A DNA stretch of 33,839 nucleotides, taken from assembly GCA_947467625.1 (NCBI GenBank), contig CANIJN010000029.1, positions 1-33,839 on the forward strand, read 5' to 3'. Below are positions 7,401-28,738 of the stretch, one piece after another. Below the pieces are notes generated by a model that worked only from the letters and a program-made list of their open reading frames with translations, searched no databases and was not told where the DNA came from. The position numbers were made by a program, and so were the translations under genes. The DNA comes from Opitutia bacterium (GTDB lineage Bacteria > Verrucomicrobiota > Verrucomicrobiia > Opitutales > Opitutaceae). Every line of letters begins with the position of its first letter. Within the stretch, counting starts at the first letter, position 1.

Positions 7401-7802
7401 GGAATCACGGCCCGTGCTTGGCGCCGGGCGGTCGCGATTTTCCAGTTGTGCCGCCCGCGGAGAGTTTGCGTCGACGGCTCCCTTCCGCACTGCCAGCGCA
7501 CCCGTGGTGGTATCGCGGCTGACGACGAGCGGGGTTCTCGCCACGAGCAAATCCAAGGCTTCGAGCGGGGGGAAATCGCCGCGCACGGCATTGGTCTGCA
7601 CGCCACGGACGGCGGCCGGTGAAAACACGATCTCGCGATCCGCCTGCTCGGCGAAGCGGGCGAGCGTCTGCGTGGCGTCGCCGACGGGAACATCGAAACG
7701 GCGCTTCGTGTCGAGGGCGGGCGAAGGGGCGGCGGTGGCCAACGCGGTCGTCAGCGCCAGCAGCAGTGCCGAGACAAAAGGGAGGAGGCGGGGTGAAACC
7801 AT
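4455..7802 (-). CDS. TonB-dependent outer-membrane receptor with N-terminal STN signalling domain (locus A)
   Basis: A 1115-residue receptor. The start at 7802 gives the signal peptide MVSPRLLPFVSALLLALTTA. An alternative ATG at 7847 adds 15 residues with no signal character, and the longer open frame up to 8336 merely shadows fecR. Domains: STN (about 36-107, FDVPVGDATQTLARFAEQAD ... GALAVRK), a variable linker, the SETVELSPFVV motif (134-144) probably serving as TonB box, plug (about 150-290, with GSRLNTKLRDTPGSISVF), then a 22-strand barrel ending in RFTTTYTF with a terminal Phe for BAM assembly. STN domains pass ligand occupancy to a FecR-type anti-sigma factor; the matching FecR and sigma genes lie directly upstream (67 bp). 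It probably imports a glycan breakdown product or siderophore; the adjoining esterases favour a carbohydrate. No SusD partner is present. Confidence 0.92.
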   Translation of the reverse strand: MVSPRLLPFVSALLLALTTALATAAPSPALDTKRRFDVPVGDATQTLARFAEQADREIVFSPAAVRGVQTNAVRGDFPPLEALDLLVARTPLVVSRDTTTGALAVRKGAVDANSPRAAQLENRDRPAPSTGRDSETVELSPFVVNTARDLGYLAENTLAGSRLNTKLRDTPGSISVFTREFLDDLGINDIRQLVEYSVNSEVDVGTGAGGPNQNTYIDASNLNVNVRTRGISASQGLDYFTSIAPADSYRVGRYDDSRGPNSILFGISNAGGIINQSSKLAATHRDSGTVRYTMGSWDSSRIELEANRVLRPDRLAFNLAAVQQENGGWRNFDFKDKKRLFGAVVFRPVSQLTVNVTAETGRDINAIIRTLTDTEEVLAWYDNRAALGVNAVTFTPNNAVPTAAQTALGVTGRNGASGGLNHRLTYVENDGVFFDAIGTYLTGTYNNNAVKLGGLPGVTGGPLKLADFKIYPTFNNAAGPGMSRYQSLSNTTAFADWQLTKNLFLNLGHNYQRTDVLINLLVNSDPTLRGDPNRSLGIGGPQNPYVGRLYFDGNWNRDIASRIYRESRVSLSYNFQPKAKWLGTHRLAGMLSHSTDTNERVNSWLVLAGHPFNPSPFNTNNRVTVRNYLTEGDYNTYRVGDWRSLPKTIDFLGKSYGTTYANVPADRVTNGGSIQFTNSRLAVVQSHFLRDRLVTTLGYRTDLAKLIRFGVYSDPEVGDVVDRDPAKQTAAFYPGRTVTAGAVYHLFDWVSLLANRSTSVGVPSVGTTIFPDGRLAAGPRGRGTDYGLDFRLLEGRFNAKLVYFTSNEQGKTTAAGQFRQRNPRVMDALAGVLVGPGRPFSQSQWDPIYLAYTPPVTSTQSELDSTGYEARITANLTTNWRFMANYAYNDYTNTGIYSFDVIPWYGLKLDASGRLAQGVSQNASGQYLINPSAYTPDGAVAKWLELGAMAPAANPAILTTSTGSTVAQEIFDLVDQTGANKVNGDRRWGLRPHRIALFTAYDFRQGFLKGFTVGGGWRWRSPNVIGADPSGREITGAGLASADLMLRYARKFPRLPGRLSFQINISNLFDKTDIVPVRLLTDDPSFTLPGGHGVAYSRYDVVDPREIRFTTTYTF

Positions 7803-7869
7803 GGGGTAGCGAGTTTCACTCAAGACACGCGGCAGCCGCGTTTCCATTATCCCGTAGTTCCAGAAAACT

Positions 7870-8895
7870 CTAGCGAGAGGCCCGCAAAACGATTTCACCG
7901 CCCGCATCCGGTTCGGAACGCACGCCGAAGTCCGCAGCCAGGAGTCGCAGGAAACCGGAGACGTTGTCGGAGCGGAAGCGCACGGTGAGCCGCAGTTCAC
8001 GCAAAGCGGGGGCAGCCACGCGCAGGACCACCGGATTGTGGCGGTTGAATTCGTTGACAATCGTCGAGAGCGATTCGTCGGCAAACCCGAGCAGGCGCGG
8101 CTGCCACGCCAGCCGGCGATCGAGCTCCTCCTTCGACAACAGGCCGACCACGGGCGCGCCCGTCGCTGCGCGCGGCACGAACGCGCGCTCGCCGGCAGAC
8201 AGCGCGGACAAAACGCCGGCTCCGCTCGCGTCGCCGCGCGCCACGGTGACGATCCCCTCTGTAACGATGACTTCGATGGCTTGCTCGGTAAGACGAACAT
8301 TGAACGCGGTGCCGACGGCGCGGATCTTGACGCCACCGGATTCGACGACGAAGGCCCGGACGGAATCCTTCGCGACGGCGAAATCCGCCTCGCCGCGTTC
8401 GAGGCGCACGCGGCGTTCGTCGGGCGTAAACGCGACTTGCAGGGTGGCGCCGCGGTTCAACCGAATCGTCGAACCATCCTCGAGCGTGCGCTCTTCAATC
8501 GGCGTCAGCTGTGCCGCCGCCAACGACGCGCCGGCGGAGGTGACCGCCACGGGCCCGGATCGGTTTGCGACGACGAGCAGAATTGCAGCGGCCGCAGCCA
8601 GGGGCACGGCCAGCCACGCCAGCCGCCGCCAGGTCCGTTGCGGCATCACGCGGCCGTCCGGCGCGAGCAAGTCGGGATCCGGAATAGCAGGCACGGAAGC
8701 ATGCAGGCCGGCGAGGCGGTCAAACTTCTCCCACGCGCTGCGGTGGCGGGCCATCGCCTCGCCGTTACACGGATCGGCCGCAAGCCATTGCAGGAACTCG
8801 TCTTGCTCGGCGGGCGAGAGGCCGCGGTCATGACGCATCACCCAGCTGGCGGCGACATCCGCCGGATCGCGATTCTCAGAAGGCGCAGGTTTCAT
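7870..8895 (-). CDS. fecR: FecR-family anti-sigma factor (locus A)
   Basis: A 341-residue inner-membrane regulator. The start at 8895 (MKPAPSENRD) is chosen because its ATG overlaps the sigma-factor stop (ATGA, 8895-8892) and the earlier in-frame start gives only basic low-complexity sequence. Domains: cytoplasmic DUF4880 anti-sigma segment (12-55, AASWVMRHDRGLSPAEQDEF), one membrane helix (90-112, rich in Ala/Leu/Val), periplasmic FecR domain (about 132-225, LEDGSTIRLNRGA and IRAVGTAFNVR), and a C-terminal DUF4974/STN-like domain (265-330, SLSTIVNEFNRHN). In the Fec paradigm it holds the sigma factor and releases it when the receptor's STN domain reports ligand. It is translationally coupled to its sigma factor, which keeps the two in balance. 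Confidence 0.9.
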   Translation of the reverse strand: MKPAPSENRDPADVAASWVMRHDRGLSPAEQDEFLQWLAADPCNGEAMARHRSAWEKFDRLAGLHASVPAIPDPDLLAPDGRVMPQRTWRRLAWLAVPLAAAAAILLVVANRSGPVAVTSAGASLAAAQLTPIEERTLEDGSTIRLNRGATLQVAFTPDERRVRLERGEADFAVAKDSVRAFVVESGGVKIRAVGTAFNVRLTEQAIEVIVTEGIVTVARGDASGAGVLSALSAGERAFVPRAATGAPVVGLLSKEELDRRLAWQPRLLGFADESLSTIVNEFNRHNPVVLRVAAPALRELRLTVRFRSDNVSGFLRLLAADFGVRSEPDAGGEIVLRASR

Positions 8896-9470
8896 CGCTG
8901 GGGCGGCGGCGCGTCGCCGTGGCGTTGGAAATACTCGGCGCATTTGCGGATGCCGATGGTGCCCTGCACCTCGACGGTGTTTTCCGAGATGCCGAGTTTC
9001 TGGGCGATTTCCTTCTGCGATAGACCGTAGATCTTGCGCAAAGTGAACACCTGGCGGCAGCGTTCGGGCAGCGACTGGATGGCGGCGATGAGCATTTGGA
9101 TGTCTTCGGCGTGGGCGACCGCTTCCGGCACGCCGATGCCATCGTCCAAGACACCTGAGAGGTCGGTTTCCGTTAACGCGATCGGATGGGTGTAGCTGCG
9201 GTGGCGGATTTGGTTGAGCGCGAGGTTGCGCGCCGTCTGGAAGAGCAGCGCCCGCGGGCAGACCACCGTGCCCTCGCTGTGGGCCCGCAGCACGCGGGCG
9301 AAAGCCTCCTGCACGATGTCGTCAACATCCGGCAGCGCAGGAAACCGCGCCCGCAACCATCCGCGCAGCAACGCCTCATGCGGCAGCACTTCAGCGGCGA
9401 ACCAGGCGGAGTGATCGGGACGGGGCGAATCCACGGCGAGACGCATGCAGGCGCGCGCTGCTGGACTCAA
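8892..9470 (-). CDS. fecI: ECF RNA polymerase sigma factor, FecI-like (locus A)
   Basis: A 192-residue ECF sigma factor. Region 2 (about 32-95) includes DVDDIVQEAFARV and PRALLFQTARNLALNQIR; region 4 (134-170) includes LPERCRQVFTLRKIYGLSQK and the helix-turn-helix EIAQKLGISENTVE. The start is set at the TTG at 9470, because the paralogue at 28018-28599 aligns without a gap from an equivalent TTG, including CxRLAVDSPRPDH; an ATG at 9446 would cut off conserved residues. No good Shine-Dalgarno is visible ahead of the TTG. It should direct transcription of the downstream receptor operon, with activity held by the coupled FecR. The gap to the next gene upstream is 75 bp (9471-9545), where I see no convincing promoter. 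Confidence 0.9.
   Translation of the reverse strand: MSPAARACMRLAVDSPRPDHSAWFAAEVLPHEALLRGWLRARFPALPDVDDIVQEAFARVLRAHSEGTVVCPRALLFQTARNLALNQIRHRSYTHPIALTETDLSGVLDDGIGVPEAVAHAEDIQMLIAAIQSLPERCRQVFTLRKIYGLSQKEIAQKLGISENTVEVQGTIGIRKCAEYFQRHGDAPPPQR
9411..9450 (-). repeat. Segment nearly identical at base level to the second sigma gene (copy 1)
   Basis: This stretch inside the 5' coding region of the locus A sigma gene matches 28540-28579 at 39 of 40 bases, with the first 33 identical, including every third codon position of RLAVDSPRPDH. The rest of the two genes differs freely. It may reflect base-level constraint, gene conversion or recent shared descent of the 5' end. Confidence 0.75.
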
Positions 9471-9545: not shown

Positions 9546-10379
9546 TCAGCGCGAGTGGCTCGCGATGAAATCAACCACGGGCGTCGGATCGACCAAGCCG
9601 TGCGGGTGATGCCCTTCGGCCTCGCGCCGGATCAAGGTGAACGTCCCGCCGAGTGTATCGTAGTGCGCTTTCATGCGCGCGCCGTTTTCCGCGTAAGGCA
9701 CCACGTCGTCTTTCGCCCCGGTGAGGTAGATGATCGCGACGTTGTCGGCGGCGAGTTTCGGCGCGAGATCGACGGGATTTTGCGTGAATGCCAGGGCCTC
9801 CGCTTCGGAGGTGAAACGATAGACCTCGAGTAGGCTCTGCCAGTCCTTCGGGCTGCCTTGGCCGAGTCCGAGTTTACCGCCCGGCCAGCTTTTGAAATCG
9901 CACACGGCTTTGTCCAAATAGAGGCACGAAACTTTTCCCGGATTCGCGGCAGCCCAGCGGGCCATGGGCAAACCTTCGCGGCTCACTCCCATCAGCGCGA
10001 CGTGTTGGGACAGGCCGTATTTCCCGGTCATTTCTCGATAGACGGAATCCCAAACGCCCTGCGGATCGGGCGCGCCGAGAACGACACTGGGACTGGCGCA
10101 AACCACATGGAATCCGCGCCGGACCAATGCGAGCTGGGTGCGGGTCATGTTCGCCACCGCCGGATTCCGCACGTCGTAAAACGAGGGGGCCAACACCCAC
10201 GGCTTTCCGGCGGCGGGCTTCTCTGGGCAAAGCACGAACGCGTTTCCATGGCCAATTGGCACCGAGCGCAGCGCAAAGGCCGGGTAATCGATCTTCTCGT
10301 GAGGAAACGGCTCGGCGGCGTGGAGTGCGACGAACGGGAAGAGTGTCAGCGCGGCGAGGAGGTAGCGACGGAGGTTCAT
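9546..10379 (-). CDS. Exported alpha/beta hydrolase (esterase/peptidase-like)
   Basis: A 277-residue protein with a signal peptide (MNLRRYLLAALTLFPFVALHAA). The alpha/beta-hydrolase fold is shown by the nucleophile elbow GVSREG (S133), a KDDVVPY segment with the likely acid (D224 or D225), and EGHHPHGL with the likely catalytic His (257-260). The segment FVLCPEKPAAGKPWVLAPSF is typical of small hydrolases found with polysaccharide lyases and sulfatases in Verrucomicrobia and Planctomycetes. The substrate is unknown; an acyl ester of a sugar is a reasonable guess. Its ATG overlaps the stop of the upstream two-domain esterase (ATGA, 10379-10376), so the two are translated together. It is the last gene of its run, 75 bp before the divergently regulated sigma gene of locus A. 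Confidence 0.8.
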   Translation of the reverse strand: MNLRRYLLAALTLFPFVALHAAEPFPHEKIDYPAFALRSVPIGHGNAFVLCPEKPAAGKPWVLAPSFYDVRNPAVANMTRTQLALVRRGFHVVCASPSVVLGAPDPQGVWDSVYREMTGKYGLSQHVALMGVSREGLPMARWAAANPGKVSCLYLDKAVCDFKSWPGGKLGLGQGSPKDWQSLLEVYRFTSEAEALAFTQNPVDLAPKLAADNVAIIYLTGAKDDVVPYAENGARMKAHYDTLGGTFTLIRREAEGHHPHGLVDPTPVVDFIASHSR

Positions 10380-12520
10380 TGGTGGATCGGAGTTCCCATG
10401 TTGATCGCGGTGGTTGGTTTCGTCGCGGGATCGGGGATGCCGGCCTGCTCGACGAGAAAACGGTTCCGCAGGCTATCGAACCAGCGGCTGCGGTTGTGGC
10501 CCAAGAGCGGAACGAGATCGATCTGCTTCGGGCAGCTCAACGTATTATAAATTGAGAGCACGGTCATCGGCGGACAGGCCGTGTCGATCAGGCCGCTGCT
10601 CATGAGCACAGGCACCTTCACGAAACGGGCGAAGTTGCAGGTGTCGTAGTAGGCGGTGGCGGCGATGATTTTGAGATCGGGCGTCTTCTTGTCGCGGCCC
10701 ATAATGAGGTTGCTGGGCGCGGCGTCGGGTCGGCCATGGAGTGGGCCGGTGTGCTCGCCGAGCGCGGGTGCGATGCTCACGACGGCCGTGATGCGCGGAT
10801 CGAGCGCGGCGGCGATCAGCGCGAGTCCGCCGCCTTGGCTGGCGCCGGAACTGATGACGGCCTGTTGATTCCAATCGGGACGCGAGGTCATGTAATCAAT
10901 CCCACGCACCATGCCTGTGAAGACCTGCCGGTAGTAGTAAGTCATGCGATCGTCACTGCCGATATACGGATAACCCATGTATTTTTTCCACCGGGCTTCA
11001 TCCTCGGATGTTCGCTCCATGGGCATGTCATGCGCGCTCATATCGAGCGCGAGAAACCCTAGGACCGCATTGCCGATGACCCAGCGCGACTCCTTCAAGC
11101 CATTTGGGTGCACGCCCATGCCCGGCTGCGAAATCATAATGGGTAGCGAAGAGGCGCCCTTGGGCTTGGCGAGGTAACCGTGCGAACGGCGGCCGTCGAT
11201 GTTCGCGAAACTCACCTCGAAGAGTTCGACGTGCGGATTCTCCTGCGCAACCGGACTGATCTTCGCGTCGATAGGGATTTTCGCCAGCGCTGCTTTCTGC
11301 ACGTTCCAGAACTCTTCGAAGTCAGCGGGGAGTGTCGTGGTGGGCGCAATGTGGTCGGGCGCGAAGGCGACCGCGGCCATGCCGGAGCCGAGTGTTGTCT
11401 GGTCTGCGACGACGACCGGCGTCACCCTGAGTTGCAGCACGCCGGGTTGGTCGAGCGTTCCCTGGACTGTGGCCGCGCCGGACTTGAGCGAGAGGGTGCC
11501 CTTTCCCAAAACCGTCGCCCCGTCGAGCGTCAGCGTCCAGGAGAGTTCGGCGGGCAAGCTTGGAGCGTGGTCGGCCAGGGTTACGCGAAACACCGCGGTC
11601 TCGCCGAGCTCATAGATCGCGTCCGGATGGTCGCTCTCCGTTTTGATCCACGTGTTGAGCGGCACCGGAGTGCTCGCAGCTTGAGCGGCCGGAGAGCTCA
11701 AAGATCTTAGCCACGGAAGAAACCGGTCCGGCCAATGGGACGCTGCGGTGGTCTGATCCGCATGAAACGCCCTGTGCCCGCCAGCGGGGTAAAGGTGTAC
11801 CTCCACGGGCACCGCCAATGTTCGCAGCGACTCCGCAATACCGACGGTGAATTTGCTCGGGGCGACTTTGTCATCTTTCGCGGTCGCGATAAATACGGGC
11901 GGCGATTGACGGCTAAATTTGAAATCGCTCGCCTGCTGCCCGCGGGGAAAAGGGCAGAGCGCGACAATGAAGTCCGGCCGGCAGCTCTCCCGCAGGATCG
12001 GATCTTCCGACTGAGGTTCGCCGCGATCAAAATGACCTGCGAGGGTAAGGGCCAGATGGGATCCGGCCGAGTATCCCAGGACGCCGATTCGTTTCGGGTC
12101 GAGGCGCCACTCGGCCGCGCGATGGCGCACGAGGCGCAAGGCCTGCTCTGCATCCACCAAGGCCGTGGCCACCGTCGCCTCCGTGACTTCGACGCCCGGT
12201 GGAGCCACCCGATATCTCAACCCAATCACCGCAATGCCCCTGGGTACGAAGTAGGCGGCGTTCGCCTCAACGTGTCGGCGGATGTCATGGCCGTGATAAC
12301 CGCCGCCGGGAAAAACGACCAACGCGGTGCCCGTGCTTGTGCCCGGTGCGGGCAGATAAACGGTGAGGTTGGCTTGCTCGCGATCCGTCCGGTTCGCCTC
12401 ACCGGCCTCCAGACTCTTGCCCTGCAGATCAAAACATTGCGGGGACGCCTCAATCCCACGCAGCGCGCACGACCCAGACACGATGAGGATTACAAGAGCG
12501 TGGGTGATCAGAGTTTTCAT
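10376..12520 (-). CDS. Two-domain esterase: BD-FAE-like hydrolase fused to CE7-type acetylxylan esterase
   Basis: A 714-residue exported protein (signal peptide 1-25) with two complete alpha/beta-hydrolase domains. The N-terminal one (about 45-275) has oxyanion motif FPGGGYHGHD (70-79), nucleophile GYSAGS (S151), acid in AKDDKVAP (D216/D217) and H249, as in BD-FAE / bacterial xylan esterase proteins. A beta-sandwich-like linker (285-390) follows. The C-terminal one (about 395-700) has GASQGGGLALIAAALDPRIT (S561), GLIDTACPP (D646) and LLGHNRSRW (H675), matching carbohydrate esterase family 7 (acetylxylan esterase / cephalosporin C deacetylase). Both triads look intact. The fusion would deacylate two positions or two kinds of ester on the same glycan (inference). 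It starts with an ATG at 12520 after a 500-bp poorly coded stretch and is coupled to the next hydrolase by ATGA. Confidence 0.85.
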   Translation of the reverse strand: MKTLITHALVILIVSGSCALRGIEASPQCFDLQGKSLEAGEANRTDREQANLTVYLPAPGTSTGTALVVFPGGGYHGHDIRRHVEANAAYFVPRGIAVIGLRYRVAPPGVEVTEATVATALVDAEQALRLVRHRAAEWRLDPKRIGVLGYSAGSHLALTLAGHFDRGEPQSEDPILRESCRPDFIVALCPFPRGQQASDFKFSRQSPPVFIATAKDDKVAPSKFTVGIAESLRTLAVPVEVHLYPAGGHRAFHADQTTAASHWPDRFLPWLRSLSSPAAQAASTPVPLNTWIKTESDHPDAIYELGETAVFRVTLADHAPSLPAELSWTLTLDGATVLGKGTLSLKSGAATVQGTLDQPGVLQLRVTPVVVADQTTLGSGMAAVAFAPDHIAPTTTLPADFEEFWNVQKAALAKIPIDAKISPVAQENPHVELFEVSFANIDGRRSHGYLAKPKGASSLPIMISQPGMGVHPNGLKESRWVIGNAVLGFLALDMSAHDMPMERTSEDEARWKKYMGYPYIGSDDRMTYYYRQVFTGMVRGIDYMTSRPDWNQQAVISSGASQGGGLALIAAALDPRITAVVSIAPALGEHTGPLHGRPDAAPSNLIMGRDKKTPDLKIIAATAYYDTCNFARFVKVPVLMSSGLIDTACPPMTVLSIYNTLSCPKQIDLVPLLGHNRSRWFDSLRNRFLVEQAGIPDPATKPTTAINMGTPIHQ

Positions 12521-18914: not shown

Positions 18915-21900
18915 CTATTTTTCGACGGCTTCGGCCGCGACGGAGGCAGCACTGCCGAGGGTGAAATCGGCGGCCTGGCCGCGGCGCTGGCGGGCGAGCC
19001 ACGCGATAGCGGCGGCGGGTTCGGAATCATGTCCGCCTTCGAAGACGGTGATGCGGGCCTGGCTGGCGATCCGGCGGAAGAGCACGGGCTTTTGCCGCTC
19101 CGGGTCGGTTTGGGTCTCGCTGGCGAGCGCGGCGGGAATCTTCTGCTCCTTCACCATGGAGCGGATGTCGGCCTCGCTGACTTTGCGTTCCGGGTGGCCC
19201 GAGGCTGCGGCGAGGGCGTTGAACGCGTAAAGCGAGTGGCTCACTGGCACGGACCCCGTGTGTCCGTCGTGGATACCGGTATTGATGTCGAGCGGCACAG
19301 CTTTGGCCGCGGCCAGATGAAAAAGGGGGGAGCGCTTCCGATATTCGCTCTCGGTCGTCGGGCTGGGCGGGCCGCCGCAGGATTGTTCGAGCATCTTTGC
19401 GTAGTTGGTCTTGCGGGCGGTGCTCTCCGCGTGCCAGGCGGCGAGGTCGGAGATGGGCACCCAAGCGCTCACGCCAGCCCACACCTGCGGTGCGCGGGCG
19501 GCCATGACGAGGGCCATGTGGCCACCACCCGAGCCGCCGAGGAGGGTGATGCGGGACGAGTCAATGCGAGCGTGTTTCTTCGCGTAATCGACGGCGTCGA
19601 GAATGTCTTGGGAGGCGAGTTCCGAGGCGCAGGCTTCGGGGCGGCTATTGGGTCCGCGAAAATCGGGAGCGACGAGCACCCAGCCCATTTTCTTAGCGAG
19701 GCCGATGAAGGACACGCCCTGCTCGAAGCCGCCGCTCCACGAATGGAGGTAGACCAAGAGCGGGACTCCTTGGCCCTGCACATCGCGGGCTGCGCTCTCG
19801 GGGCAATGCCAGATGACCAGTTGTTCTGTTCCGTCAATCGAGCTGGGGATACGAACCGCGTGCTGTGCTGCCGCCGCGCGTTGCTCGGCGAGCGTGAGAC
19901 GTTTGGCTGGCGGTGGCTTCACGGGAGCAGAGGCCGGTGCGGTCGCAGGTTTGCTGGGCTCGATGGCCGCGGGCGGTGCGTTGATTTTTCCCTCGCGCTG
20001 AAAGGCCTGCCAGTCGGTGGCAAAGGCGGCGTTGATGAGCCAGGAGGCCGTGGCTCGGTTGCCCTTGAAATCTGCGAACGGGGTGACGCTCAGGGTTTGA
20101 GCGCCGCCCTTCGTCGGATCCCAGTTTTGGCCGAGGTGGCCTTTCTCGATGGGGAGGGAGGTGAGCTTCACGGGGCTTTGGCGAGCATCTCCAGCGGCCG
20201 GCACCCGCGCCGCGAAGCTGTGCCGGAGAAAGGAAAATACCAAGGGCCAGGTCTTTTCACCGGGGGCGTGACCGGTCTTCGGCTCGACGGCGAAGCTCCA
20301 CACGGCGGCGTGGTTTTTTCTCAGCGTCGGGACCACGGCGAGATTCTCCTCCTTGGACGGACGCGCCAGAAAGGGATCGTCCTCGCCGAAGATGACCAAC
20401 CCTGGCACCTGTGCCGCGCCGGGCTGATACACCTGAAACGTGATGCCGGGGCGCATCGACACCCAGCCCCAGACGCGATCCGGCGCAGACGCGGGGAACA
20501 CCGCAGAGAAGCCGGTGCCGTTCGAGTGGCCGTAGAGAAAGAGCGGCGCATGACCCAGCTCAGGGTGGCCGGTTTTTTCGCCCCAAACCTGCAATCGATC
20601 GAAAAGTAAACTGCCCGGCCAGAAGCCCCGCTGCAGGGGATTGCCCACGAACTTGAACAAAGCCAGGTGCAGCTCCTGGGCGAGCGCGCGCAGGTCAGCA
20701 CGGCGGAAGAGATTCTCGCCGCTGCCGTGGCCGGACATGACGACGATGCCTTTCACCACGCTCACCCCATCCGGCAGCCAGAGATCCCACTTCACCTCCT
20801 CGCGTTTGCCTTCGCCTTTCTGCTTCACCGCTTCGGCCCACTGCGCGGCACTGATTTTCCAATCCCAATTTCGCGCCACCACCTGCTGCGGCGCGGGCGT
20901 GCCCCACTTCGCTTCATCGAGCACGCCGTTCCAGCTCTGCGTGTCCTTCGACTGCACGTTCGCACTGACCCAACCGATGCTATGGCACTCGGGGAGGTGC
21001 TCGTAGCCGCTCCATTCCGTGCCGCCATGCGCACGTCTCGGCGCAGTCCATTGTTGATCGAGCCATGGCACGACCTTCTCCGCCCACTTTGCACCATGTT
21101 CGCGCAGGCCCTGGCCGCTGAAGTGAACACCCTGACCGTTACGTTCGCGCAGCTCGCCTTTGAGCGCGTCGCTGTCCGGGCCTGCAAAGGCGATGCCATC
21201 CTTCCACAGCGAGGCCTGCGCCGCGCGGATGTCGGCGCTGCCTTCGTCGCCGGGCACATGATAACTCGCCTGTGCGACAAACCACGGCGCTTCCCAGCCG
21301 ATCGCCCGTCGCGAGTCGCGGATGAGCTTTTCGAGATACTTGCGGTAAAGCGGGCCCGCCAGCGTCCGCGACGTGTCTTTCTGGTTCGCATCGCTCTCGC
21401 CCTGATGCCAGAGCACGGCGCGAAAGCCTTGCGGTCCGAGTGGTTTCAAACGTGCGACGAAGGCGTCGTAGGCTGCGCCTTGGCTGGCCCAGGTGCCGTC
21501 GGGGCGTTTCTCCACGCGGCGCTCGATGGTGGGAGGATTCGGAAAGGTCGCGCCCTTGGGCAACCACTCGCGTACACTCGTCGCGCCGATGCCGCAGGCG
21601 ATGATGCCCACGGGCACCTCTTGTTTGGCCACCACGGCATCGGCAAATGGCGGGATGAAACTACCCCCGCCACCGCTCGCGCCCGGCTGCGGATCGTCCG
21701 CGAGCCGCCAGCTCGTGCCATCAAATGTGGCGACGCGACCGCTCTGTGGTTTTTGTTTTTCCTGACCGTGATTAGCCGAGTTTGACTGTCCCGCGATGAC
21801 GAACACCTCGCCCACGCCGACATGCTCGACAGCGCCAGAAGCGACCGCCTTGCCTCCGTGGGAAACGCGCACCTCGAGCCTCCACCAACCACCGGCCGCA

Positions 21901-22166
21901 GCGTCGAGGACGCCGGAAATCGTGCGGTTGGAAAACGTCGCATTGAGTCGCTGCCACCCTGCGTCCGACGCGGCGCCGACCAACCGCGCCTCCATGACCG
22001 CATCGCTCGGCACCACCTCGGGAAGCTGTCCCGCGATCTTCAGCATCCCCCGCGTGAGAGTGGCCCGCTGCACGACTTGGAAATCACGCGGCGAGGTCAG
22101 CGTGAGATTGGCGGCGTGCAGTGCGGCGAGGGGAGCGAGTAGCAGAACGAGGAGGAGGTATTTCAT
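18915..22166 (-). CDS. Triple-domain esterase: SASA/SGNH + alpha/beta hydrolase + prolyl-oligopeptidase-like hydrolase
   Basis: A 1083-residue exported protein. The start at 22166 gives signal peptide MKYLLLVLLLAPLAALHAA; the earlier frame overlaps the receptor gene. Three catalytic modules follow. (1) SGNH/SASA esterase (about 20-375): AGQSNSAN with S128, WHQGESDA (253-260) and VHFSGQGLREHG with H348. (2) Alpha/beta hydrolase (about 455-655): MSGHGSGEN, nucleophile GHSNGTG (S548), FGEDDPF and TGHAPG (H633). (3) After a Pro/Ala linker (730-755), a prolyl-oligopeptidase/DLH-like hydrolase (about 765-1060): LHSWSGG oxyanion motif, GGSGGGH (S879), GIHDGHTG (D967) and EGGHD (H1046). All three triads look complete. 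A secreted enzyme removing several esters from one glycan is the likely role (inference). It follows the second receptor gene by 91 bp. Confidence 0.85.
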   Translation of the reverse strand: MKYLLLVLLLAPLAALHAANLTLTSPRDFQVVQRATLTRGMLKIAGQLPEVVPSDAVMEARLVGAASDAGWQRLNATFSNRTISGVLDAAAGGWWRLEVRVSHGGKAVASGAVEHVGVGEVFVIAGQSNSANHGQEKQKPQSGRVATFDGTSWRLADDPQPGASGGGGSFIPPFADAVVAKQEVPVGIIACGIGATSVREWLPKGATFPNPPTIERRVEKRPDGTWASQGAAYDAFVARLKPLGPQGFRAVLWHQGESDANQKDTSRTLAGPLYRKYLEKLIRDSRRAIGWEAPWFVAQASYHVPGDEGSADIRAAQASLWKDGIAFAGPDSDALKGELRERNGQGVHFSGQGLREHGAKWAEKVVPWLDQQWTAPRRAHGGTEWSGYEHLPECHSIGWVSANVQSKDTQSWNGVLDEAKWGTPAPQQVVARNWDWKISAAQWAEAVKQKGEGKREEVKWDLWLPDGVSVVKGIVVMSGHGSGENLFRRADLRALAQELHLALFKFVGNPLQRGFWPGSLLFDRLQVWGEKTGHPELGHAPLFLYGHSNGTGFSAVFPASAPDRVWGWVSMRPGITFQVYQPGAAQVPGLVIFGEDDPFLARPSKEENLAVVPTLRKNHAAVWSFAVEPKTGHAPGEKTWPLVFSFLRHSFAARVPAAGDARQSPVKLTSLPIEKGHLGQNWDPTKGGAQTLSVTPFADFKGNRATASWLINAAFATDWQAFQREGKINAPPAAIEPSKPATAPASAPVKPPPAKRLTLAEQRAAAAQHAVRIPSSIDGTEQLVIWHCPESAARDVQGQGVPLLVYLHSWSGGFEQGVSFIGLAKKMGWVLVAPDFRGPNSRPEACASELASQDILDAVDYAKKHARIDSSRITLLGGSGGGHMALVMAARAPQVWAGVSAWVPISDLAAWHAESTARKTNYAKMLEQSCGGPPSPTTESEYRKRSPLFHLAAAKAVPLDINTGIHDGHTGSVPVSHSLYAFNALAAASGHPERKVSEADIRSMVKEQKIPAALASETQTDPERQKPVLFRRIASQARITVFEGGHDSEPAAAIAWLARQRRGQAADFTLGSAASVAAEAVEK

Positions 22167-22257: not shown

Positions 22258-25200
22258 TCAGAAATCAAACGTCGTCGTAAAGATGAACTGGCGCCGGCTG
22301 ACAATCCGCCACGCCGCGATTGAACCGTCCGCGTCCGCAGCGATGGGCTGCAGGCGGCCGCCCTCGGTCAGGTTGCGGACGTTGAATTGAAAGGTTGTCC
22401 CGACCTTGTTGCCAAACAGCCGCGTGCGATAGCCAGCAAATGCGTCCACATAAAGGTGCGCCTTGTCGTAGATCGGCCGCGTGGGATCATAGTCGGTGAT
22501 GACGGCCGGCAGCTGCTGCTTACCCCAGTAGCCGATTGCTCCTTTGTCCTCCCAGCGCAGCGCGCCGCCGACGTTGATTCTTTTCAGGATGGAATTTTCG
22601 GTGATCCCGGCTAGCTGGAAGTTTGTCGTGGCGTTGGCGCGATACTTGCGAATCTGTGGATTGGAGAGACCCTCGGTGGCGAGCGCGAGGTTGAGCGGTG
22701 CTATGATGTTTGCCGCCACATCCTGCGCCTGCGTTTGCGAAGTGTTCGGATATCTGAAGGTGAACCACGGCTGACCATTGATTGGGTCAATGATCGATTG
22801 CCACACCTTCATGCGCTCAGCCAGGTACTGGGCGACTTCTTTGCCAATATGGCCCTGAATCGACTCGGACTCGGCGACGTTGAGCTTCAGCGTCCAAAAT
22901 TTCGTCGGGTTGTAGTTGAGCTCGATCTCCCGACCCTTTGCGATCACGTCTTGGGTAGCGGTCATGCTGTATTGAAATTGATTCAGGAAACTTACCGGCA
23001 TCTGCATGATGGCCGCTACCCGGGTATTCAATTCACTCGGCGTCAGCGTTTGGCCTTGAGCGGCGGCCGCCGCATTTGCCCAGATAATCGCCTGCTGCTG
23101 GAGCTGGTAAACCGCGAAGGAGGTCACCGGCAAATTGTTGATGCCGCCGATGTGGTCTACGCCGATGATGCGGGTCGCAATGATGCCGGCGTTGCCGGTG
23201 CGAGAGCGGAGTTGCCGCGTGTCATACTGGTTTGCCCGGATCACGAGCTTCCCGGAGAAAAGATTGAGCGCAAAACCGTAGTCCTTCCCCGTGCCACTGG
23301 GATCGGGTAGATTTTTTAGATAGATGTCGGTTTGAATTGTTGCCGGCTGGAAGCTGTCTGATTTGTTGGCAAACACGCTGAACCACTTCACCGGCTTGAG
23401 CACGATGCCGATATTCCGCGTTGGGCCTTTGCTCAGGAGCCAGTCGGTGGTCGGAAAGCTGAGAAAGGACTTCTCATCGACTGTGTAGCCGTCGGGGTTG
23501 ATGTAGATCGGCGCGTTGGCCTGAGCGTAGCGCGCATCGTGCCGGAGGCCCAGGGTCGTCACGACCCGGTCGTCAAGAAAATGACTCTGGAGAATGGCGC
23601 CACGGCTCTTGAGAATCTGCCACGAGCGGCTGCTGCCATTGTAGGCGGGCGCGAGCCGGGCCTGTTCGGTGACCATCTGTCCGGCGCTGTTGACGCCCCA
23701 AGTAAACGGATAGACGCCCGGCGTCTGATAATTGAAGGGCGCATAGTCGACATTCTGTCCCTGATTATCACCCATGTAGAAAAAGAAGTTCGGCAGGGCC
23801 ATCGTGGTGCCTTGAGGCAAGGTGCGTCCGTCCCTCATCGGCAGGCCGGCGGCGGCGCGGACTGCGTTGTTCAACCAGGGATGGTCGTCGATGATCGCGT
23901 CGCGGCTGGTGCGGCTCCATGACTTGAAATCCTTGTACTCGGTGAAGGCGCCCAGCTCGTGGCGGCCGAGCCAGCGCAGCCAGCTCCTGTCGCGAGTGAA
24001 GTCGAGCCGGTAGGCGAGTTGCGCGCGATAGGTGTCGCGATCAAGCGGGTTGGTGACCGTTTGGTTGATGTTGTTGATGAAGGGCCTGAGAAAACCCGGA
24101 TTGGGCCGGCCATCGAGTAGGTTCTTGTTCACGTCGACCTGCAAAATCGCCTGGCTCAGCGTGCCGCCGGCAATGACGTTGCGCACGTACCGATCCGTCT
24201 GCTCACGGAACCAACCCAGTTGGACAAACGCGTTCTGGCGCCCGGTCGAAAGCAGCGACTGATCAATCAGCACCGAAGCGATCTCACTCTTGTCGTCCTG
24301 ATGGTTGGGCGCCGCCAGATTGATGCGCGTCCAATCGTAGATGGCCTTGGAGGCCAGCGGCGGAAAATCGTTCACCAGCGGTTGGGAAACCCGGTAGCCG
24401 CTGGGGTCGAGCGCTGGTGCCTCGAAGAATGCCGGGCCATTTTGGGAGGCCGGGTTGGCCGGCCCCGTCGAGGTGTTGCTGGAAAGTCCGGAGCGCGAGG
24501 GTCCCCAATAGAACATGCCGTTTTGATCGAGCAGGAACACCGAGTTTCCCGGGTAGCGATCACGGTTGAGCACGGAGGGTAAACCAACCGTGGTGACTCC
24601 ATTGATCGTTGCCGACGCAGTCACCGGATCCCAGGTCGGCGAACCGGCATTGCGCCACGCTGTGATCGATTCGCGCGGCGTGGTCGTATTGGGGCGGTTG
24701 CCATAGCTGTGATAATACGAAAACGAGCCGGAGATGCTAGTGGTCTTGAAAGGATTGAAACGGATCATGCCGTTGTAGCGCTCGGTCTGGTAGCCCGATG
24801 GTTTGAGCTGAAAGCCATCGCGCTGCCCGACGGCGCTACCGCGAATCGCCAACACACCCGGCTTAAGCACGCGGTTCAGGTCGAGGCTCGTGCGATAGCC
24901 ACCGAAGCTGTCGTAGCGCGCGCTGACTTGGGAGCGGCTCTTGGAGAGATTAACGGAAGCCCGCACCGTGTTCACTGTTCCGGCGGCGTTACCGATGCCG
25001 AAGATATTGGAATTAGGTCCGCGTCCGAGTTCCACCGCGTCGACCTCAAGCACGTCGATCGGCGTGCGACCGCTCGTCTCAAAATTGCCGAAGGAGACAT
25101 TCGCATTGCCCACGCCGCGAATGCGGTTGGCGGTGAGTGGATCGTATTGGGTATTATCGGTCGCGGAGCCGTTGCGGTCGAACGAGAAATTGGTGAACGT

Positions 25201-26040
25201 CGCCGTGCCCTCGGTGCTGGCCTCATAGGCGAAAATGTCGTCCATGTTGAGCAGCGCGAGGTCGGTCATCTGCTGTTTGGTGATGACCGTGATCGAGGCG
25301 CCGAGGTCCTCGAGTTTGGCGTTCATGCGCGTTCCCGAGAGCGTGTTGGCGCCGTAGTAGCCCGCGTCCTTTTCTGACGTGACCATGAAGGGTGAGAGTT
25401 CGACTGTTTCGCTCGTGGCGGGCGCGACCGGAGCGGTTTGGGCCGAGGCTTCAGCGGCGCCAAACGCGAGCAGGCTGAGGATCGAGAGCAGGGTGGGGGA
25501 TTTCATCGGAGTTTGGGGGGCGTTCGTCTGGTTTCGGGGATTCGCGGTAGGTTCCGCCGGATTGGCGGGGGGTGAAATGGGTGTCGGTGAAATTCCCGGT
25601 CGGACCTGAGGTGCCAGCTTCTTCACTGCGATGGAGCCGCTGTCCGTTTGCACCGCGATCAGGCTCGTGCCGGCGAGAATCCGGTCGATGGCCTCGCGGG
25701 GTGTGAACGCCCCCTTGACTGCGTTCGTGCGCACGCTCGTGGCGTCGTCGGCGACGTAGAGAAGTTGCACGCGAGACTGCGCGATGAACTGCTTAAAAAC
25801 CGCCGCCGCTTCACCCGAGGGAAGATCGAAGGACCGCTTGGCCGAGGCTTCGGGAGTCGTGGCAGCCCCTACGCTCGAGATCAAGGCGCAGCCCACCGCG
25901 AAATGTATCGCGAAGGTTGGCGGAAAGTAGACGCGGGGTAGGGGCACTGCTACTAAGACGAACCACCGCAAAAAACAGTTAGAGGCGGAGCGAAAGCGCC
26001 GCGGGTCGTGGCGGGCGGGCAACGGCGTCATGCGCAGCAT
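22258..26040 (-). CDS. TonB-dependent receptor with STN domain and an internal second signal-peptide-like segment (locus B)
   Basis: A 1260-residue frame. The N-terminus has a long basic lead, a hydrophobic run (FAIHFAVGCALISSVGAA, about 43-60) and an STN domain (about 68-140, RSFDLPSGEAAAVFKQFIAQ ... GSIAVKK). A Pro/Asn-rich linker (142-177) follows, then MKSPTLLSILSLLAFGAAEA (179-198), which reads as a complete second signal peptide, then ETVELSPFMV (211-220), plug (about 225-370; GTRMNAKLEDLGASITVITK) and a barrel ending FTTTFDF with a terminal Phe. Translation could begin at 26040 (with STN) or at the internal ATG at 25506 (without STN), the latter giving a normal receptor of about 1082 residues. 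The upstream sigma/FecR pair (26937-28599) should be its regulator but is separated by a toxin-antitoxin module. The ligand is unknown. Confidence 0.88.
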   Translation of the reverse strand: MLRMTPLPARHDPRRFRSASNCFLRWFVLVAVPLPRVYFPPTFAIHFAVGCALISSVGAATTPEASAKRSFDLPSGEAAAVFKQFIAQSRVQLLYVADDATSVRTNAVKGAFTPREAIDRILAGTSLIAVQTDSGSIAVKKLAPQVRPGISPTPISPPANPAEPTANPRNQTNAPQTPMKSPTLLSILSLLAFGAAEASAQTAPVAPATSETVELSPFMVTSEKDAGYYGANTLSGTRMNAKLEDLGASITVITKQQMTDLALLNMDDIFAYEASTEGTATFTNFSFDRNGSATDNTQYDPLTANRIRGVGNANVSFGNFETSGRTPIDVLEVDAVELGRGPNSNIFGIGNAAGTVNTVRASVNLSKSRSQVSARYDSFGGYRTSLDLNRVLKPGVLAIRGSAVGQRDGFQLKPSGYQTERYNGMIRFNPFKTTSISGSFSYYHSYGNRPNTTTPRESITAWRNAGSPTWDPVTASATINGVTTVGLPSVLNRDRYPGNSVFLLDQNGMFYWGPSRSGLSSNTSTGPANPASQNGPAFFEAPALDPSGYRVSQPLVNDFPPLASKAIYDWTRINLAAPNHQDDKSEIASVLIDQSLLSTGRQNAFVQLGWFREQTDRYVRNVIAGGTLSQAILQVDVNKNLLDGRPNPGFLRPFINNINQTVTNPLDRDTYRAQLAYRLDFTRDRSWLRWLGRHELGAFTEYKDFKSWSRTSRDAIIDDHPWLNNAVRAAAGLPMRDGRTLPQGTTMALPNFFFYMGDNQGQNVDYAPFNYQTPGVYPFTWGVNSAGQMVTEQARLAPAYNGSSRSWQILKSRGAILQSHFLDDRVVTTLGLRHDARYAQANAPIYINPDGYTVDEKSFLSFPTTDWLLSKGPTRNIGIVLKPVKWFSVFANKSDSFQPATIQTDIYLKNLPDPSGTGKDYGFALNLFSGKLVIRANQYDTRQLRSRTGNAGIIATRIIGVDHIGGINNLPVTSFAVYQLQQQAIIWANAAAAAQGQTLTPSELNTRVAAIMQMPVSFLNQFQYSMTATQDVIAKGREIELNYNPTKFWTLKLNVAESESIQGHIGKEVAQYLAERMKVWQSIIDPINGQPWFTFRYPNTSQTQAQDVAANIIAPLNLALATEGLSNPQIRKYRANATTNFQLAGITENSILKRINVGGALRWEDKGAIGYWGKQQLPAVITDYDPTRPIYDKAHLYVDAFAGYRTRLFGNKVGTTFQFNVRNLTEGGRLQPIAADADGSIAAWRIVSRRQFIFTTTFDF

Positions 26041-26147
26041 AGACTGTCAGCCCAAGCCGTTTACCGAAGGGATACCTGCGCTCCAGCTTTCCGATCGGCG
26101 CTCAGTTATGGATTGCAGATCATACGTCATTGAAGTAGTGTCTAACG

Positions 26148-26459
26148 ATGATCACTTTTGTCGAGGATGAGCAATTCACCAAAGCGGCCGACCGGCTGCT
26201 CAGTGGTGATGAACTCTTTGCCCTCATGCAGAAGCTCGCGGCGGAGCCCGAGGCCGGTGACATGATTCCGCAGTCGGGTGGCTGTCGAAAGCTCCGTTTC
26301 GCCGCCAGGGGCAAAGGCTCTCGCGGTGGAGCCCGCGTGATCTATTTTTATCGATCCAGCGCCGGGCAAATCTTGCTCCTGGAAATTTACGCCAAGAACG
26401 AAAAGACCAATCTTTCTCCCAACGAACTCAAGGTTCTTAAACAAAAGGCCAAGTCATGA
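26148..26459 (+). CDS. Type II toxin, RelE/HigB-like mRNA interferase
   Basis: A 103-residue cytoplasmic protein of the usual RelE/ParE-superfamily size. Markers are the N-terminal FVEDEQFTKAADRLLS helix, the central GCRKLRFAARGKGSRGGARV strand region, IYFYRSSAGQILLLEIYAKN, and the basic NELKVLKQKAK tail. RelE/HigB toxins cut mRNA on the ribosome when the antitoxin is lost. Its stop overlaps the antitoxin start (ATGA, 26456-26459), giving the toxin-first order typical of higBA-type pairs. It is one of two genes on the plus strand in the middle of a long minus-strand array. The 107 bp before it (26041-26147) also contains the start region of the receptor gene transcribed the other way; I see only weak promoter-like hexamers there. 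Confidence 0.85.
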   Translation: MITFVEDEQFTKAADRLLSGDELFALMQKLAAEPEAGDMIPQSGGCRKLRFAARGKGSRGGARVIYFYRSSAGQILLLEIYAKNEKTNLSPNELKVLKQKAKS

Positions 26460-26830
26460 AACCCGCAGAACTCAAAGAAATCGTGCGCCGCAAAACGGCC
26501 CTGCTCGCCGGCACCACCCGGCCCGGCCGCGTCACGCAACTCGTGCCCAACGGCAAAGGCGGCTACGTGCGGCGGCTGATCAACCCAGAGACCTATCGCA
26601 AGGCGCAGGCGGCCGACCAAGCTGCGAGCGTGACGGCGGCGAGGGCGAAGCTCGGGCTTTCCCAGCGGGAGATGGCTACCTTGATGGGCATTTCCCCACG
26701 GACCCTTCAGAACTGGGAACAGGGCCAGCGCGAACCCGATCAGGCGGCGAAAATGCTGCTGCGCGTGGCCGTGCGGCATCCGCAGTCCGTGCTCGATGCG
26801 GCCGAGCCAGTTTTGGCCCGCGCGGGTTGA
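26456..26830 (+). CDS. Type II antitoxin, HigA-like with XRE helix-turn-helix
   Basis: A 124-residue antitoxin. The N-terminal half (1-55) is the toxin-binding part, with GRVTQLVPNGKGGYVRRLIN. Residues 60-108 form an XRE-type HTH: TAARAKLGLSQREMATLMGI followed by SPRTLQNWEQGQREPDQAAK, similar to the DNA-binding domain of HigA/MqsA-like antitoxins. It should neutralise the toxin and repress the shared promoter. The ATGA overlap couples its synthesis to the toxin. It ends 106 bp from the convergent fecR gene; the gap (26831-26936) has a small GC-rich hairpin but no clear terminator. The pair is self-contained and typical of modules that move between genomes. Confidence 0.85.
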   Translation: MKPAELKEIVRRKTALLAGTTRPGRVTQLVPNGKGGYVRRLINPETYRKAQAADQAASVTAARAKLGLSQREMATLMGISPRTLQNWEQGQREPDQAAKMLLRVAVRHPQSVLDAAEPVLARAG

Positions 26831-26936
26831 GCGAGCATTCGTGGTCATCGCAGGACTCGGGTAGCGGAGGGTCCGCCAAACGTAACTCGGCAAAGCCACG
26901 GACCCGGCGTCCTCATGCCCAACACCCCGTCCGGCG

Positions 26937-28028
26937 TCACCGCCGCGAGCGCAGCACGGTTTCGTTGCCGCGCGTTTCGACCGCCACTTGGGCGGTGGCC
27001 GCGAGCAGCACCAAAAAACCATCGGGATCATCGGCACGGAAGGAACCGCCGAAACGCAGGCCCGCCAGCGCCACATCGGCGACCACGAATTGCTGGCGAT
27101 TGTAGCGATTGAACTCCGCGACGATCTCGGCGAGTGGCGCCGCCTCGAAGGCGAGCGTGCGCTGCTGCCACGCCAGCGCCGCCTCGATTTCGCTGCGGGC
27201 CAACCGCTCCACGGTGGCGGTCACGATTGGCGCGCTGGGCTTCGGAATGCTCACCTTCGCTTTTTCGCCGGCGGAAAGCACGGGCGCATCACGCGTCGCT
27301 TCCACTTTCGGCAGGAGCGTCGCGCGGGGCGCGCCGGGCTGCGCAGACTCCACCCCGACTTTGCCCTCGGTCACGAGGACCTCTACCGATCCAGCAGCCG
27401 TGGCGACGCTGAAGGCCGTGCCCACCGCGCGGACGCCGACGCCATTGGCCTCCACCACGAACGGGCGCGCGGGATCCTTCGCCACGGTAAAGTGCGCCTC
27501 GCCGCGGAGCAGCTGAATGTGGCGCTCGTGCCGGCCCAAGCTGACGGCGATCGCGGAGGACGGGCGCAGCCGCACAACGGAGCCATCGGGCAGGTTGACG
27601 CGCTTGAGCATGCCGGCTTCCGCCGTGGTCGACTCGGCGAACTGCGTTTCCTGGTCGCCCGGTCGTTGCCAGACCCAGGCGGCGATGGTGAGTGAGGCCG
27701 CGGCCGCCAGCGAAGCGGGCAGCCAGAAGCGGCGCGTCCGGTGCGCCAGTGTGGAAACGCCGGGAGAATCAGCCGAGGGCGCAGTCGTCGCGGCCAGAGA
27801 GGCCAGCGAGAGTTCGCGGGTGCGATCCAAGAGCGACCACGTGTCCTCCATGTCGCCGAACAGCTCGGCGTGACGGGCATCTTGCTCGAGCCAGCGGATA
27901 AATTCCTCATGCTCGGAGGACGTCAGGCCGGCGTCTTGACGCGCCCGCCATTCCGCCGCCGCGCGCACGGCGGCAGCACCAGCGTCGCGGTCGCCGTCGC
28001 CGGGCGATTGGCGTGGGTCAGGGGTCAT
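26937..28028 (-). CDS. fecR: FecR-family anti-sigma factor (locus B)
   Basis: A 363-residue inner-membrane protein. The cytoplasmic DUF4880 region (about 20-65, AAAEWRARQDAGLTSSEHEE) is followed by a membrane helix (101-120, FWLPASLAAAASLTIAAWVW), a periplasmic FecR domain (about 140-225, VNLPDGSVVRLRPSSAI and VRAVGTAFSVATAAGSVEVL) and a C-terminal DUF4974-like domain (290-355, PLAEIVAEFNRYNRQQFVVA). The start at 28028 lies 11 bases inside the sigma gene end, so the two are tightly coupled. It is predicted to hold the locus B sigma factor until the receptor (22258-26040) signals. The receptor is normally the next gene, but here the toxin-antitoxin pair intervenes on the opposite strand, so the receptor needs its own promoter. 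Confidence 0.9.
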   Translation of the reverse strand: MTPDPRQSPGDGDRDAGAAAVRAAAEWRARQDAGLTSSEHEEFIRWLEQDARHAELFGDMEDTWSLLDRTRELSLASLAATTAPSADSPGVSTLAHRTRRFWLPASLAAAASLTIAAWVWQRPGDQETQFAESTTAEAGMLKRVNLPDGSVVRLRPSSAIAVSLGRHERHIQLLRGEAHFTVAKDPARPFVVEANGVGVRAVGTAFSVATAAGSVEVLVTEGKVGVESAQPGAPRATLLPKVEATRDAPVLSAGEKAKVSIPKPSAPIVTATVERLARSEIEAALAWQQRTLAFEAAPLAEIVAEFNRYNRQQFVVADVALAGLRFGGSFRADDPDGFLVLLAATAQVAVETRGNETVLRSRR

Positions 28029-28599
28029 GGCGATCTTTCCGCAGCAAACCGCGGGCCCGAAAATATTCCCGGCAGCGCAGCATCGCGAGGGTGATGTGGG
28101 CGTTCACCGTGTTGCGAGTGATCCCGAGGCGCGCGGCAATTTCTTCGTGGGAGAGGTCGTGATATTTTCGCAAGATGAGTACTTCGCGGCAGCGCTCGGG
28201 CAAGGTGCGGATCGCGGCGGCGAGCGTTTCGAGTTCGAAGTCGACATCGGGAGAGGTGGCATCGGCGTTACCCTCTAAGACGAACGAGCCCTCGGAATCA
28301 GTTAGAGGCTCGAATGCCACGACCCGATCTCTCCGCACGCGATCGAGCGCGGCATTACGCGCCGTGTTGAACAGATACGCCTTCGGATGGTCGATTTTTC
28401 CTGCGGCGCGGGCGCGAAAGACGCGCAAGTAGGCTTCCTGGAGGACATCGTCGATATCGCGCACCGAGGCAAACCGCGCTTGCAGCCAGGACCGCAGCGC
28501 CGGCTCGTGCGGGAGCACTTCGGAGGCAAACCAAGCGGCGTGATCGGGACGGGGCGAATCCACGGCGAGACGAATGCAGTTGCGAACCGCGGAGTTCAA
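28018..28599 (-). CDS. fecI: ECF RNA polymerase sigma factor, FecI-like (locus B)
   Basis: A 193-residue ECF sigma factor starting at the TTG at 28599. The open frame extends to 28680, but alignment to the locus A sigma factor is gap-free only from this TTG, and the upstream 27 codons are Arg/Pro/His-rich. Region 2 (about 32-95) includes DIDDVLQEAYLRV and PKAYLFNTARNAALDRVRRD; region 4 (133-172) includes TLPERCREVLILRKYHDLSH and EEIAARLGITRNTVNAHI. It shares NSAVRNCIRLAVDSPRPDHA-type N-terminal sequence with its paralogue. It should direct the locus B receptor operon. The 139-bp gap to the PSD1 stop (28600-28738) has no clear promoter. Confidence 0.88.
   Translation of the reverse strand: MNSAVRNCIRLAVDSPRPDHAAWFASEVLPHEPALRSWLQARFASVRDIDDVLQEAYLRVFRARAAGKIDHPKAYLFNTARNAALDRVRRDRVVAFEPLTDSEGSFVLEGNADATSPDVDFELETLAAAIRTLPERCREVLILRKYHDLSHEEIAARLGITRNTVNAHITLAMLRCREYFRARGLLRKDRHDP
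28540..28579 (-). repeat. Segment nearly identical at base level to the locus A sigma gene (copy 2)
   Basis: Partner of 9411-9450: 39 of 40 bases match, inside the 5' coding part of the locus B sigma gene. The codons for RLAVDSPRPDH are the same in both genes, although the rest of the proteins have diverged considerably. Confidence 0.75.
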
Positions 28600-28738
28600 G
28601 TGCGGATGCGGGCGAGGCGAAAGTCTCGCGCCAAGCTGGCAGGTTGCTCCGCGCACCCCGGCCGCTGCCGTCGCCCGCAATCAATAACTGAAGCGGCTCG
28701 TGATCACCCATTCGAGCGGGGGATTGGTAAATGAAGAG

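Follow-up and report, generated by a model that had tools for sequence, protein, structure and literature searches.

A single gene in the window (the whole stretch of DNA analysed, 33,839 nucleotides) reads as three hydrolases in one secreted chain, which raises the questions of whether the join is real and what such a protein would act on. A signal-peptide-like start is followed by an SGNH/SASA domain with nucleophile S128 (domain A), an alpha/beta hydrolase with S548 (domain B) and a second alpha/beta hydrolase with S879 (domain C). The features of the chain are as follows.

18915..22166, (-), whole gene, three-domain secreted hydrolase A-B-C of 1083 aa, an uninterrupted ORF
22113..22166, (-), signal peptide, residues 1-18 (MKYLLLVLLLAPLAALHA), assigned by inspection
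21027..22112, (-), domain A, residues 19-380, an N-terminal all-beta part (about 20-118) and an SGNH/SASA fold (Pfam, Foldseek)
21783..21785, (-), Ser128 of GQSN, nucleophile of A, invariant in 27 sequences
21123..21125, (-), His348 of GxGVHF, catalytic His of A, invariant in 27 sequences
19974..21014, (-), domain B, residues 385-731, alpha/beta hydrolase without a Pfam family (AF2 model)
20523..20525, (-), Ser548 of GHSNG, nucleophile of B, invariant in 22 sequences
20376..20378, (-), Asp597 of GEDD, acid of B, conserved among relatives
20268..20270, (-), His633 of TGH, His of B, invariant in 22 sequences
19893..19973, (-), Pro/Ala-rich linker, residues 732-758, the B-C fusion point, of low pLDDT and the place where A+B relatives stop
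18918..19892, (-), domain C, residues 759-1083, S9/PHB-depolymerase-like alpha/beta hydrolase (Pfam, Foldseek)
19530..19532, (-), Ser879 of GGSGGG, nucleophile of C, invariant in 33 sequences
19266..19268, (-), Asp967 of GIHDG, acid of C, 97% conserved
19029..19031, (-), His1046 of GGH, His of C, invariant

The full chain was modelled with AlphaFold to a mean pLDDT of 86 and a pTM of 0.49, a low pTM being expected with domains on flexible joints. Two stretches, residues 410-433 and 731-755 (the Pro/Ala linker), had a pLDDT below 50. Domains A, B and C are predicted by these models to be three separately folded serine-hydrolase units on flexible joints. The first-pass annotation had proposed three hydrolase domains in one secreted 1083-residue chain, with which the ORF, the signal-peptide-like start, the Pfam matches and the models agree; its three nucleophiles were correctly placed and are invariant among relatives. 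At least two esterase-fold catalytic domains are therefore carried by one secreted chain, the arrangement by which a multicatalytic carbohydrate esterase is recognised.

An artefactual join of separate genes, which the first-pass annotation had allowed for, is very improbable, whether it arose in assembly or in annotation. The full order is known from MAGs and assemblies alone, and the search yielded a single further complete copy. That copy, however, is in a separate MAG (L032, labelled Opitutus sp. GAS368), where the 1083-residue ORF is complete at 96.6% DNA identity (3.4% divergence) with zero base changes in the signal peptide region. dN/dS between the window and L032 was 0.16 for A, 0.31 for B and 0.25 for C, indicating purifying selection on all three domains; the linker value was 0.79, on few sites. 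A third assembly (L037) shows the B-C joint on a contig that begins inside B. Partial fusions with matching borders occur in other lineages, A+B in five relatives (L033, L034, L035, L038, L096) and in pieces in L060, B+C in L036, and single A, B or C genes were also found. The A+B proteins stop where the linker of the window starts, and single C proteins (65-74% identity) have their own signal peptide directly ahead of the shared C core. The full chain is moreover nested among A+B fusions in a domain tree. When overlapping samples of 273 genomes from the order and 387 from the phylum were searched, with two candidates scored per genome, the full A-B-C order was located only in the window's own genome, and it was absent from one sampled genome of the same genus. 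The exact A-B-C order is confined to one tight species group among the data examined.

All fused rows, A+B and A+B+C alike, group in a single clade of the A tree (support 100/98), and the full chain is nested beside the A+B protein of a Spartobacteria MAG (98/92). In the C tree the C domains of the full chain and of the B+C protein L036 are sisters (100/100), and the B-C junction of L036 has a Pro/Ala linker similar to that of the window. The B of L036 groups with single B genes with weaker support, the B tree being poorly resolved. The clade of fused rows in the A tree implies that A joined B once and that C would have been added later via a Pro/Ala linker. Today the A+B fusion spans more than one class and also occurs in a Pirellulaceae MAG. 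These trees are most simply read as shuffling between fused genes.

Domain A was matched by Pfam to SASA at residues 120-365 (E 8e-21), and its best structural matches in Foldseek were SIAE and CE20 enzymes. Comparison with XacXaeA (7kmm) gave a Z of 23.4 and an rmsd of 4.0 over 300 residues, approximate values from an alignment range that exceeds A. In classical SGNH esterases the acid lies within a DxH or DxxH motif. Asp was found at H-2 or H-3 of the catalytic His in 0 of 27 A sequences; H-2 is Gly in all 27, and H-3 is Gln in the window (Q345/G346). Only Ser128 and His348 are visible as catalytic residues in the sequence of A, and the HQGES block is invariant or nearly so across the 27 sequences, distant ones included. 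The earlier proposal of intact triads in all three domains thus held for B and C and failed for A, where the expected acid is missing. CE20 and SIAE enzymes nevertheless remain active without the canonical acid, the acid acting via a water in the CE20 enzymes studied and a carbonyl holding the His in SIAE (PMC12313940). Because the canonical acidic partner is missing, A was likened to acid-displaced CE20/SIAE enzymes and not to CE6, and the label SIAE/CE20-like, with no acid apparent, suits it better than that of a triad enzyme. It resembles XacXaeA (7kmm), Fl8CE20_II (9h4u) and SIAE (8f9q) in fold and, going by the sequence, may like them have a catalytic His that no Asp contacts directly, but differs in being shorter, in its GxGVHF motif and in lacking the inserted ancillary domain of the bacterial CE20 subgroup (∼360 aa against ∼620-640 for 9h4u/9ega). 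The CE6-type motifs GQSN and HQGE and the SGNH fold are present in A, with profile matches to 1zmb and 2apj; CE6 membership was ruled out because neither position -2 nor -3 from the catalytic His holds an Asp.

Relatives of A were also located in other chains. One, at L054:6639-12641, is part of a 2001-aa chain, with an alpha-L-fucosidase (GH29) on one side of it and a GH106-like rhamnosidase domain on the other. Further fusion partners are a metallophosphatase (L013), DLH (L039), an S9-like hydrolase (L051) and, of cytochrome/cupredoxin type, DUF6797 + cupredoxin (L050).

Domain B modelled alone (AF2) gave a pLDDT of 83 and a pTM of 0.86. Asp597 is present in relatives down to about 27% identity, is ambiguous in 3 of the most distant rows and is nearly invariant in A2; by residue conservation the triad S548-D597-H633 is judged complete. 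B did not reach a Pfam or NCBIfam cut-off (Hydrolase_4 22.9 against a cut-off of 27; zero NCBIfam matches over B), the B of the window searched alone gave zero Pfam matches at E 0.01, and generic weak Pfam matches were obtained in at most 9 of 21 family members. Structural matches included feruloyl esterases, monoglyceride lipases and others; no B-specific family stood out in these searches, the rows being generic alpha/beta hydrolases. A relative of B (69%) at L095:2398-5829 opens a 1144-aa chain whose other ∼760 residues have no Pfam match.

Domain C was matched at residues 827-988 to Peptidase_S9 (E 3.5e-16, Pfam), with additional BD-FAE/Abhydrolase matches, and Foldseek returned 8daj and S9 catalytic domains. 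Its triad S879-D967-H1046 is likewise complete as judged from conservation, giving an S9-type Ser-Asp-His catalytic domain. The N-terminal beta-propeller is absent, the linker and domain B preceding C, and single C genes (∼340-420 aa) are too short for one. The earlier label of prolyl-oligopeptidase-like therefore applies to the fold of C and not to its architecture. C resembles PHB depolymerase/feruloyl-esterase-type hydrolases and S9 catalytic domains (8daj, 3wyd, 4hxe) in fold and Ser-Asp-His order, but at about 16-22% identity, with no propeller and under the NCBIfam curated cut-off. Membership of CE1/PHB depolymerases was rejected at the curated NCBIfam cut-offs (NF050058, 49.7 bits against 150; TIGR01840, 27.5 against 107.85). 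C is best read as a putative esterase. Resemblance in fold does not tell esterases, lipases, thioesterases and peptidases apart. A single C gene filed under Polynucleobacter (L041) groups tightly with Verrucomicrobia C genes and has the same neighbours; the contig is probably mis-binned.

Two neighbours of the fusion gene were annotated as follows.

22258..26040, (-), TonB-dependent receptor with an STN domain, upstream of the fusion gene (Pfam Plug), syntenic in L032
16419..18815, (-), right-handed beta-helix protein resembling GH141 BT_1002 (phmmer), syntenic in L032 and L037

The match of the beta-helix protein to 5mqp (phmmer, E 8e-11) extends across residues 19-190 only. Upstream of the fusion gene and on the same strand are an ECF sigma factor, FecR and the TonB-dependent receptor; downstream are the GH141-like protein, then ThuA, a PVC-type haem protein and a BD-FAE + AXE1 double esterase, with a second sigma/FecR/TonB set and another SASA protein farther along. 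The gene order from the sigma factor through the double esterase is conserved in L032. An importer and glycan-active genes thus adjoin the fusion gene, as is characteristic of a polysaccharide locus. No sulfatase was found in the window. The two ECF sigma/FecR/TonB-dependent receptor sets (4458-9470 and 22258-28680, (-)) flank the esterase-rich genes of the 34-kb contig. The double esterase (10376-12520, (-), 714 aa) is a second fused protein, with a BD-FAE-like and then an AXE1-type acetylxylan-esterase domain. A beta-lactamase-fold hydrolase (1444-2633, (-)) is split into two ORFs (2088-2633 and 1444-2091) overlapping by a few bases, of which only the second matches Pfam Beta-lactamase, and this suggests a frameshift or assembly error.

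Single A and C genes are 1-11 kb apart in four related genomes of the order Opitutales, and single C genes immediately follow BD-FAE-type esterase genes, with sulfatases, an FGE-type protein and SASA nearby. This clustering, together with the BD-FAE, sulfatase and FGE-type genes of the single-C loci, supports a shared task of A and C on what would be decorated, partly sulfated glycans. Around the A+B genes are sulfatases, GH127 or cytochrome/ThuA genes, while the single-B loci are mixed; from Pfam scans of nearly 50 neighbours no one common substrate could be named across the mixed A+B, B+C and single-B loci. A cluster with single A and C genes at L100:2092-14634 also contains a cytochrome P450, an O-methyltransferase relative and a second methyltransferase-like protein, which hints at methylated sugars. 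Verrucomicrobiota have been reported as specialists on sulfated methyl-pentose polysaccharides (PMC8857213).

With a TonB-dependent receptor and a GH141-like protein flanking the gene, three-headed de-esterification of a decorated polysaccharide is the likeliest role. The gene product is rather likely to be a putative secreted (periplasmic or outer-surface) multicatalytic carbohydrate esterase, and its target is probably one algal or plant polysaccharide from which several decorations are stripped by the one protein. Domain A may release small acyl groups, O-acetyl being the probable one. Its mechanism would use Ser and His, with a backbone carbonyl, a water or a displaced acid holding the histidine in the manner of SIAE/CE20. 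B and C may act with ordinary alpha/beta-hydrolase triads on other or differently placed esters, such as bulkier acyl groups or uronic-acid esters. One diffusing, linked protein would clear adjacent decorations of the same polysaccharide outside the cytoplasm, after which the GH141-like enzyme could cleave the glycan and the TonB-dependent receptor import the sugar; the fusion would hold the activities together, as in CE6-CE1. We infer the three distinct activities and the substrate. The removal of several esters from one substrate, as had been proposed at first, is consistent with the anatomy, the polysaccharide locus and the neighbouring or paired modules of relatives; the accompanying option of a peptide-like bond is weak, since C is without a propeller or any other part of a peptidase. 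A more specific version, offered only tentatively, is a three-headed esterase with one specificity per domain acting on a methyl-pentose- or uronate-rich polysaccharide, with B a new carbohydrate esterase family and A an acid-free (dyad or water-mediated) SGNH centre.

It is unlikely that esterase activity is limited to one or two of the domains, with A mainly carbohydrate-binding or poorly active and the fusion serving anchoring or dosage. The missing acid of the canonical SGNH triad and the many unrelated fusion partners of A, like those of a mobile module, fit such a role, but near or full invariance of GQSN, HQGES and GVHF in 27 sequences would be needless for mere binding, CE20/SIAE enzymes function without the acid (PMC12313940) and dN/dS is lower in A than in B or C. 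Nor is C, and perhaps B, at all likely to be a peptidase or amidase in a protein that cuts an ester and a peptide-like bond in a glycoprotein or peptidoglycan-type substrate. Peptidase_S9 is the top curated Pfam match of C and S9 peptidases are its top structural matches; C is however a lone hydrolase domain without the S9 beta-propeller, it also matches PHB depolymerase and feruloyl-type esterases, and single C genes are located directly behind BD-FAE-type genes and near sulfatases.

The first-pass annotation knew of no described enzyme of this order, but precedents exist. Fused CE6-CE1 acetyl-feruloyl esterases (BoCE6-CE1, FjCE6-CE1) have been characterised, and the full-length B. ovatus CE6-CE1 outperformed the separate domains through intramolecular synergy (PMC7110780). 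Nine uncharacterised CE6-CE1-CE1 proteins have been listed from PULDB (PMC8040265). The window protein resembles CE6-CE1 in being secreted, with an N-terminal SGNH esterase, a C-terminal alpha/beta hydrolase and an adjoining TonB-type importer in a polysaccharide locus. CE6-CE1 proteins have two domains, of families CE6 and CE1, in xylan loci of Bacteroidetes, whereas the window protein has three, its A is without the CE6 acid and a CE1 identity of B and C is unsupported. CE6-CE1-CE1 proteins, going by the names given in that list, likewise combine an SGNH domain with two alpha/beta-hydrolase domains; they are said to carry CBM48 and are mostly from Flavobacterium. Fused esterases of related design are thus already known, and other families seem to occupy each position of the window protein.

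The most useful aspects are domain B, which lies outside the curated families examined and represents a conserved hydrolase family without a name in general libraries, and the partial-fusion series. Characterised fused esterases are rare, and the benefit of fusing decoration-removing domains is an open question (PMC8040265). Related bacteria provide a natural series of A, B, C, A+B, B+C and A+B+C, so the benefit of fusion is testable with native proteins.
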